Below, piece after piece: positions 14,676 through 18,728 of a DNA stretch of 32,811 nucleotides (the first letter of the stretch is position 1; each line of letters opens with the position of its first letter). The position numbers and the translations under genes were made by a program. Source of the stretch: an uncultured bacterium (lineage in GTDB: Bacteria; Vulcanimicrobiota; CADAWZ01); NCBI GenBank assembly GCA_902790465.1, contig CADASF010000021.1, positions 1 through 32,811 of the forward strand. The letters run 5' to 3'. Below the pieces are notes generated by a model. The model had not been told where the DNA came from, did no database searches, and was given only the letters and a program-made list of their open reading frames with translations.

Positions 14676-14701
14676 AATTTTAAACTCCCTTTATCTTTTG
14701 C

Positions 14702-14745
14702 AAATTTCGCAGAAATGTGTTTATAAGTTCATTTCTGCGAAATTT
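14702..14745 (-). repeat. 16-bp hairpin where rpmD would normally be
   Basis: AAATTTCGCAGAAATG (14702-14717) and CATTTCTGCGAAATTT (14730-14745) pair perfectly over a 12-nt loop. It fills the rpsE-rplO gap, the usual location of rpmD. There is no T-run directly after it on the minus strand, so it is more likely an RNA-processing, stability or pausing element than a terminator. Confidence 0.7.
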
Positions 14746-14764
14746 ATAGATTTTTAATTTTTAC

Positions 14765-16231: not shown

Positions 16232-16636
16232 TTACCAAACATAACCTAATACTTCGCCACCAACACCATTAAGTTTGGCGTTTTTACCTGTCATGACACC
16301 TTTAGATGTTGACATTATAACAACTCCAAGACCACCTAGAATACGAGGGATCTCTGCTTTTGGTGCATAAATACGAAGTCCTGGTTTACTAACTCTTTTG
16401 ATTCCAGTTATAACTCTTTCACGAGCTGGACCGTATTTCATTTTAATTCTTATAACTCCCTGAGCAGCGCCTTGAGGATTTATAAGCTGATAATCCGCAA
16501 TAAAACCTTCTTCTTTCAAAATCATAGCAATATGCTCTTTGATTTTGGAAGCAGGAACGTCAACCTGTTCATGATATGCAACATTTGCATTTCTTACACG
16601 AGTGAACATATCGGCAATAGGATCTGTCATTCCCAT
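16232..16636 (-). CDS. rpsH: Ribosomal protein S8
   Basis: S8 binds the central domain of 16S rRNA, and in E. coli it represses the spc operon by binding its mRNA. The 134-residue protein starts [17 protein letters not shown] and ends with the signature [27 protein letters not shown] chose the ATG at 16636: GGAGG lies 9 nt upstream. An earlier in-frame start at 16672 would add 12 unrelated residues and overlap this site. The 268 nt before it, back to rpsN, are non-coding and structured (separate entry). Confidence 0.97.
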
Positions 16637-16733
16637 AAAAATATTCCTCCACAAAGTGATTTGACTTGACATTTCCCTTAGAAAAGAGATTCTTGGTTTG
16701 CCGAAATTAGCAGTTTATAGTTTATTATATCTG

Positions 16734-16840
16734 CACAATCCCATAACCAAGCATGACTTTCCGTGTGTCTCACGGTAGTTTCGCTATTTAGGTCATATAC
16801 TTTCGTATATTTCCATTTCTTGGCTTGTGTTTACACACAA
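16734..16840 (-). ncRNA. Candidate structured leader RNA upstream of rpsH
   Basis: On the minus strand, in the direction of the operon, the following pairings can form: CACAA with TTGTG (16825-16829 with 16734-16738); CCAAG with CTTGG (16819-16823 with 16747-16751); ATGAC with GTCAT (16792-16796 with 16753-16757); a hairpin ATATAC-GAAA-GTATAT (16795-16810) with a GNRA tetraloop; and CCGTG/CACGG (16761-16775). Together they make a closed, multi-branched fold. The outermost strand at 16825-16830 can instead pair with 16835-16840 (ACACAA/TTGTGT, loop of four), so two folds exclude each other. Downstream, TATAAT occurs before rpsH without a clear -35. I could not match it to a known riboswitch or ribosomal leader. 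It could be an autoregulatory site (for S8 or another protein), a riboswitch, or a processed RNA. Confidence 0.5.
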
Positions 16841-16904
16841 AGGAAGAACCAACTTATAGTTGATTCAAAATTTTGTAAAAAAAACTTTTCAAATAAAACT
16901 TACC

Positions 16905-17090
16905 TTACCAACTGGATTTTGTTACTCCAGGGATCTCACCTTTATGAGCTAGAGTTCTGAAACAAATTCTGCACATGGAGAATTTTCTCAAATAGCCCTT
17001 AGGTCTTCCGCAAATCTGACAGCGATTTACTTTTCTTACTGAAAATTTAGGCTGTCTATTTGCTTTTACGATCATAGAAGTCTTAGCCAT
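16905..17090 (-). CDS. rpsN: Ribosomal protein S14, zinc type
   Basis: This is the short 61-residue zinc-binding form. The four cysteines lie in [21 protein letters not shown] (24-44), two CxxC pairs. The C-terminus [11 protein letters not shown] is typical. It excludes groups that carry only the 100-residue zinc-free form. GGAGG precedes the ATG. It follows rplE by 30 nt. Confidence 0.97.
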
Positions 17091-17663: not shown

Positions 17664-17713
17664 AATATTTCACCTTTGACAAGTTGGTTAATGTATTTTT
17701 TATTACTTTTAAA

Positions 17714-17791
17714 AGAAGTATGGTAGCTTTTACTTCTCATCTCAAATTTTTACTCAATATGACCGCAACTTCATTATGAGAAATTGCGGTC
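17714..17791 (-). promoter_or_regulatory. Two hairpins in the rplX-rplE gap
   Basis: GACCGCAA/TTGCGGTC (17761-17768 with 17784-17791) gives an 8-bp stem. AGAAGTA/TACTTCT (17714-17720 with 17731-17737) gives a 7-bp stem nearer rplE. Neither is followed by a T-run, and no good promoter is visible. The gap is 151 nt, where ribosomal genes usually lie almost end to end, so a regulatory or processing role is plausible. Confidence 0.4.
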
Positions 17792-17814
17792 TATTTATTG
17801 TAAAAACTCATTTG

Positions 17815-18582: not shown

Positions 18583-18679
18583 TTACATTATCCTCCACAA
18601 GCACTTACTAGCTTGAACGATTTTTCTGTTTCTGCTACTTCTTTAAAACAAGGAAGCAGCCTGCTCTATCTGAAATAAT

Positions 18680-18708
18680 ATAATAGCATATTATTTTAAA
18701 TATTGCAA
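18680..18708 (-). promoter_or_regulatory. Internal promoter upstream of rplN
   Basis: On the minus strand TTGCAA (18703-18708), a 17-nt spacer and TATTAT (18680-18685) give a plausible sigma70 promoter (4/6 and 5/6). A leader of about 90 nt would follow; GCTGCTTC and GAAGTAGC in it form an 8-bp stem with one G-U pair, and CAAGC/GCTTG a second. This could split rplN-to-secY (spc) from rpsJ-to-rpsQ (S10), as in E. coli where the two are separate operons. Confidence 0.6.
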
Positions 18709-18728
18709 GCTGTTTCACAACAATTTTT

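Follow-up and report, generated by a model that had tools for sequence, protein, structure and literature searches.

A conserved structured element between rpsN and rpsH in the ribosomal operon of one bacterial genus, a candidate control RNA

The window analysed here, a stretch of 32,811 nucleotides of DNA from an uncultured bacterium, carries the S10-spc ribosomal operon on its minus strand. In this operon the spacer between rpsN and rpsH is a real, conserved and structured element, found in one genus. Lying untranslated and structured on the coding strand just ahead of a ribosomal protein gene, it has one of the properties of ribosomal leaders (r-leaders), and we regard it as a candidate control RNA of this known, r-leader-like kind. 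The best explanation, which we favour tentatively, is that the spacer is a cis-acting element of the spc-operon mRNA that controls rpsH and the later genes, most likely through feedback by a ribosomal protein.

The spacer and its neighbours

On the minus strand rpsN ends at 16905 and rpsH starts at 16636; the identities of their products, S14 and S8, were obtained from NCBIfam. The features of the locus are listed below, with H1 to H6 denoting the predicted hairpins and pair probabilities given for the window and for the congener G001.

16637..16904, minus strand: rpsN-rpsH spacer, whole element, 268 nt
16905..17090, minus strand: rpsN (type Z S14), gene directly upstream of the gap; NCBIfam NF005974, 116.5 bits
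16232..16636, minus strand: rpsH (S8), gene directly downstream of the gap; NCBIfam NF001109, 178 bits
16846..16866, minus strand: hairpin H1 (GAAUCAACU/AGUUGGUUC), resembling a terminator whose T tail is weak; mean pair probability 0.89 in the window and 0.92 in G001
16824..16841, minus strand: hairpin H2 (UUUGUGU/ACACAAG); mean pair probability 0.90 in each species, invariant
16795..16810, minus strand: hairpin H3 with a GAAA loop (AUAUAC-GAAA-GUAUAU); pair probability 0.98 in each species
16761..16775, minus strand: hairpin H4 (CCGUG/CACGG); pair probability 0.99 in each species
16692..16751, minus strand: long hairpin H5 (CUUGGUU/AACCAAG and inner UGGGAUUGUGCAG/CUGCUAAUUUCG) with a variable apical loop; probability 0.83-0.97 across the two species
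16674..16689, minus strand: hairpin H6 (UCUCUU/AAGGGA); pair probability 0.87 in the window and 0.81 in G001
16646..16650, minus strand: Shine-Dalgarno sequence GGAGG of rpsH; predicted mostly paired, with partners that differ between the two species

The sequence-only reading of this DNA had pointed out the 268-nt gap, and its length and position are confirmed. The accompanying statement that the ribosomal genes mostly lie 5-40 nt apart is only partly true, as gaps of 151, 146, 89 and 72 nt are found in the same operon. A genome search shows that the spacer is present as a single copy in its own genome.

No tRNA was found in the spacer. At the gathering score, Rfam covariance models gave 0 matches in the whole window; at a lax threshold there was one match, in rpsH on the opposite strand, scoring 16 bits where the gathering score is 57. 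The earlier remark that the gap matches no familiar riboswitch or ribosomal leader class agrees with the Rfam scan of the gap. A housekeeping RNA inside the gap (RNase P, 6S, SRP or tmRNA) was also considered, and the gap matches none of these in Rfam. Compared with phage DNA, the gap gave a single 35-nt match with an E-value of 0.3, and a search of viral contigs found neither the exact motif nor relatives of rpsH.

Indels of 4, 2 and 3 columns between the window and G001 exclude a reading frame through the gap that is common to both species. Two tiny ATG frames lie inside the gap on the minus strand (16793-16816 and 16725-16754, 7 and 9 codons). The former has the same length in G001, where its stop changes from TGA to TAA, and has no clear ribosome site; the latter ends elsewhere in G001. 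A 65-aa frame on the opposite strand was judged spurious. It had split the gap in the survey of intergenic stretches, and the identity figures for the full gap are therefore taken from whole-gap alignments and not from that survey.

Predicted structure

Folded on the transcribed strand, the gap has an energy of -65.5 kcal/mol and a z-score of -3.68, and 0 of 200 shuffled sequences folded as well. This energy is ordinary for the genome, and hairpins are common in this organism's spacers as a whole. The control set, 36 other co-directional gaps of 150-420 nt taken from other stretches of the same genome, has a mean z-score of -2.67. The z-score was dropped as evidence because 13 of these 36 gaps reach -3.3 or lower. 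Conservation, and not fold energy, is the evidence for the putative element.

The base-pair probabilities give six hairpins, located at gap positions 39-59, 64-81, 95-110, 130-144, 154-213 and 216-231 (H1-H6), and all six recur in the fold of G001. The GAAA-loop hairpin and the CCGUG/CACGG hairpin proposed from the sequence alone are among the structures that exist in the window and recur in the congener. H4 consists of five pairs in the window and 7 bp in G001. H1 shows two one-sided changes between the species with the pairing kept in both; it was marked as terminator-like in the window and in G001, but it has three G-C pairs and its T tail (TTCCTTTG) is interrupted, and it resembles a weak terminator in both species.

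A closed multi-branched form had been proposed as well, and this part is not confirmed. It needs an outer stem between the poly-U stretch and the Shine-Dalgarno sequence (gap positions 22-33 with 250-261), which has a mean probability of 0.95 in the window sequence, loses one C-G pair in G001 and is absent from the ensemble of that species. The Shine-Dalgarno sequence lies about 23 nt past the last hairpin of the gap. Its bases 2-5 have unpaired probabilities of only 0.02-0.04 in the window and 0.06-0.08 in G001, and the first base is unpaired with probabilities of 0.29 and 0.46, respectively. The partner with which it pairs is not conserved between the window and G001.

Conservation in the congener

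All conservation figures come from two species, the one in the window and a single congener, G001, in which the rpsN-rpsH gap is 271 nt long. The two gaps are identical in 245 of 265 aligned columns with 9 gap columns, and a second alignment gave 94.3% identity over 262 columns with 15 gap columns. Between H2 and the start codon, identity covers 98 of the 100 paired columns and 98 of the 106 unpaired ones.

For comparison, 14 other intergenic stretches outside the window have a mean identity of 75% between the window genome and G001; these are the stretches that could be aligned, so this mean is biased upward. The maximum among them is 90%, in a stretch that is partly coding, with a reading frame that from its protein sequence is presumably xseB-like. 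The other operon spacers of at least 40 nt are 78-93% identical between the window and G001. At the fourfold-degenerate sites, summed over the operon, 1108 of 1262 (about 88%) are identical between the two, and the coding sequence outside the window has 86.5% identity between the window genome and G001.

The two species differ at three of the 59 modelled base pairs, each of which is still paired. The changes are A-U to G-U, G-U to A-U and, with both sides altered, A-U to G-C in the GAAA hairpin H3. Covariation is accordingly thin, with one double change between two species only. The sequence-only reading had asked for compensatory changes in related genomes as support for its proposal; the gap is present in G001 with pair-preserving changes, in just two species.

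Distribution in the family and the phylum

The distance between rpsN and rpsH was surveyed at 72 rpsH loci, of which 63 gave a gap length. The nine loci left out are those where the gene-end or gene-start pattern failed, and the 63 include three repeat records of contigs already counted. In the four genomes of the family (the window genome, G001, G002 and G003) the gap is 268, 271, 411 and 363 nt long. It is 44 nt in the sister family and 2-106 nt at all other measured loci.

The spacers of G002 and G003, which represent the other two genera of the family, also fold well, with z-scores of -3.40 and -3.58. Neither has recognisable sequence or structure in common with the window element. A covariance model of the core built from the two species was searched against the other family genera and 98 phylum genomes, and besides the training sequences only matches at noise level were found. 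The element is thus recognisable in two of the four family genomes, in one genus. One match, in G005 (14.7 bits), was rejected; it adjoins no ribosomal gene recognised in its reading frames.

Transcription

Scans of the window, G001 and G003 found a promoter-like sequence in the spacer upstream of rplN, namely TTGCAA-17-TATTAT, in which TG precedes the second hexamer. The same TTGCAA-N17-TATTAT was seen by eye in the rpsQ-rplN gap of G002, and hence it is present in all four family genomes. In the window, this rpsQ-rplN spacer occupies 18583-18728 on the minus strand. The E. coli spc promoter sits at the corresponding place, upstream of rplN.

A promoter scan of the coding strand of the rpsN-rpsH gap gave no match in the window, G002 or G003. 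Two 9/12 matches were found in the gap of G001, one of them starting in rpsN, and neither is common with the window. As no promoter match in the gap is common to both species, the element probably belongs to the long transcript. Scans for terminators in the window and in G001 found none at the end of the element. Elsewhere in the operon, the rplX-rplE gap of G003 (L070 6304-6332, minus strand) contains a near-consensus promoter, TTGACA-17-GATAAT, matching at 11/12 positions.

Proposed function and alternative explanations

Within the polycistronic spc-operon mRNA, the element would set the translation of rpsH and of the genes behind it, or the continuation of the transcript into them. The most likely route would be a feedback loop in which a ribosomal protein binds the element, as at the intercistronic ribosomal protein operators of E. 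coli, and S8 itself would be the first candidate ligand. Control of ribosome access would be the simplest route, because the Shine-Dalgarno sequence, about 23 nt behind the last hairpin, is for the most part predicted to be paired. By this analogy the spacer may be described as a lineage-restricted cis-acting mRNA element, and as a ribosomal protein feedback site with S8 as a first guess for the ligand. The long gap at the same place in all four family genomes (268-411 nt) speaks for such an element, while the fact that only two members are recognisable in the searched genomes, i.e. the family and 98 phylum genomes, speaks against it. For a mimic of 16S helix 21, an S8 descriptor gave no match in the gap, which carries no weight as it also missed the E. 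coli control site; a 16S search gave no match in the four family genomes.

A broader form of this proposal is that the spacer is an undescribed multi-hairpin spc operator upstream of rpsH whose place is fixed family-wide, with each genus replacing its sequence and fold, which would amount to a rapid turnover of ribosomal protein control RNA at one address. We consider this less likely than not.

The sequence-only reading had pointed to the logic of a switch, and we find a switch with two alternative folds, responding to a metabolite or to temperature, very improbable. The competing pairing described in that reading, of ACACAA (16825-16830) with UUGUG (16734-16738), has a probability of 0.000 in both species, and forcing the pairing costs 11.9 kcal/mol (-53.6 versus -65.5). 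Complementarity of this kind is at chance level in the gap, where there are 57 perfect 5-nt complementarities and 23 segments with multiple partners, compared with 65.9 +/- 10.9 and 27.2 +/- 7.5 in shuffles. A pair of mutually exclusive helices does fit a switch, as GACC (16791-16794) and AACC (16695-16698) are both possible partners of GGUU (16745-16748). Of the two, the GGUU-GACC helix is 2.1-2.7 kcal/mol worse, reaches a probability of 0.23-0.53 before the downstream arm is made, and has a G-U to A-U replacement that keeps the pairing as its sole change. However, shuffled sequence normally contains stems replaceable at such a cost. Among stems of 6 bp or more, 2 of 7 in the window gap and 6 of 8 in that of G001 can be replaced at no more than 3 kcal/mol; the shuffles average 4.08 of 5.10, and each of 60 shuffles has at least one. 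There is thus no excess of alternative folds in either species, and no Rfam class was matched. Of the two roles originally suggested, the switch by competing pairs is rejected, and the gap may be an autoregulatory site.

The main rival to a feedback element is a structured spacer acting in mRNA processing, in mRNA stability or in pausing, with no specific ligand, in an operon that is cut into segments by hairpin-bearing spacers before rplN, rplE, rpsH and rplO. Long gaps are indeed found at these four junctions in each of the four genomes of the family, and in two of them also before rplX, whereas the rplE-rpsN, rpsH-rplF, rplF-rplR and rplR-rpsE junctions measure 12-30 nt across the four and most other junctions are short. 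For the junctions before rplE, rpsH and rplO, 11 of the 12 z-scores fall between -3.3 and -6.8, and that of rplX-rplE in G002 lies outside this range at -1.9. Both the window species and G001 have a terminator-like hairpin after rpsN, and a hairpin with a T run was seen by eye at the same place in G002 and G003. Such a spacer should, however, let its loops and linkers drift. This is what the 89-nt rpsE-rplO gap does (14676-14764 in the window), whose one long hairpin keeps its stem but not its loop in G001. From H2 onward in the rpsN-rpsH gap, in contrast, the linkers are nearly as conserved as the stems, and we judge this explanation to be possible but rather doubtful. A separate small non-coding RNA gene, or a mobile-element relic, between the two ribosomal genes would agree with the compact conserved block of about 200 nt that follows a variable T-rich stretch, and with one weak model match in the right end of an element in G003 that, from its sequence, we take to be IS605/TnpB-like. 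Yet the gap lacks both a promoter match common to the two species and a terminator at its end, it is single copy, and the resemblance to IS605 does not rise above noise (14.9 bits, E 0.66) and scores below an unrelated-looking match of 20.1 bits, so that this origin appears improbable. Homology to a TnpB omega RNA or an IS605 right end was dropped, as a second copy of the G003 element has lost the shared CCUAAA segment. At least two near copies of these right ends are present in G003 (L129 1440-1640, minus strand, and L176). Finally, the other long gaps in the operon and in the genome would be compatible with a functionless, expanded spacer, but the conservation here exceeds that of other intergenic DNA and of fourfold sites, and a spacer of this sort is quite improbable.

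Relation to known systems

In E. coli, the spc operon has an S8 operator, an intercistronic RNA site that controls ribosomal protein genes including rpsH, according to PMC10931766; the site is also treated in PMC4176348. The feedback element proposed here would resemble this operator in being an intercistronic RNA site in the same operon (PMC10931766). It differs in place, as the E. coli site is at the start of rplE, two genes upstream, and the window element lies before rpsH. It differs also in form, with about 230 nt and several hairpins, while the E. coli site resembles 16S helix 21.

The junction used by E. coli is occupied in the window by the rplX-rplE spacer (17664-17814, minus strand). 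It is identical to that of G001 in 92.5% of 146 aligned columns and contains a strong hairpin (z-scores of -5.4 and -5.1 in the window and G001), and we regard it as a second candidate element. At the rpsE-rplO junction, the window has no rpmD (L30) gene, unlike E. coli.

The S7 site in the rpsL-rpsG spacer of the E. coli str operon is another feedback site in an intercistronic spacer between ribosomal protein genes, with other genes and another sequence than the window element; PMC10931766 notes that long uS12-uS7 distances occur in many species without an obviously conserved structure. Eckert and Weinberg 2020 (PMC7247131) present ribosomal leader candidates that are likewise structured RNAs upstream of ribosomal protein genes; these are backed by evolutionary covariation, while the window element rests on two species. 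In the text of that paper, uS8, uS14, uL5 and uL15 are absent as terms, and the names may appear there without the u. A limited search of the literature on r-leaders, S8/spc and rpsN/rpsH leaders, covering titles and the starts of abstracts, returned no element in this gap.

Overall, we see the spacer as a sound candidate and not as a surprise. In our view, the map of ribosomal protein feedback sites is sparse outside the model bacteria. E. coli has its S8 site elsewhere in the spc operon. If the element binds S8 or a neighbouring ribosomal protein, an uncultured gut lineage would have solved the same control problem in a new way, and if the ligand of the element is not a ribosomal protein, the element would be an orphan RNA with strong conservation.
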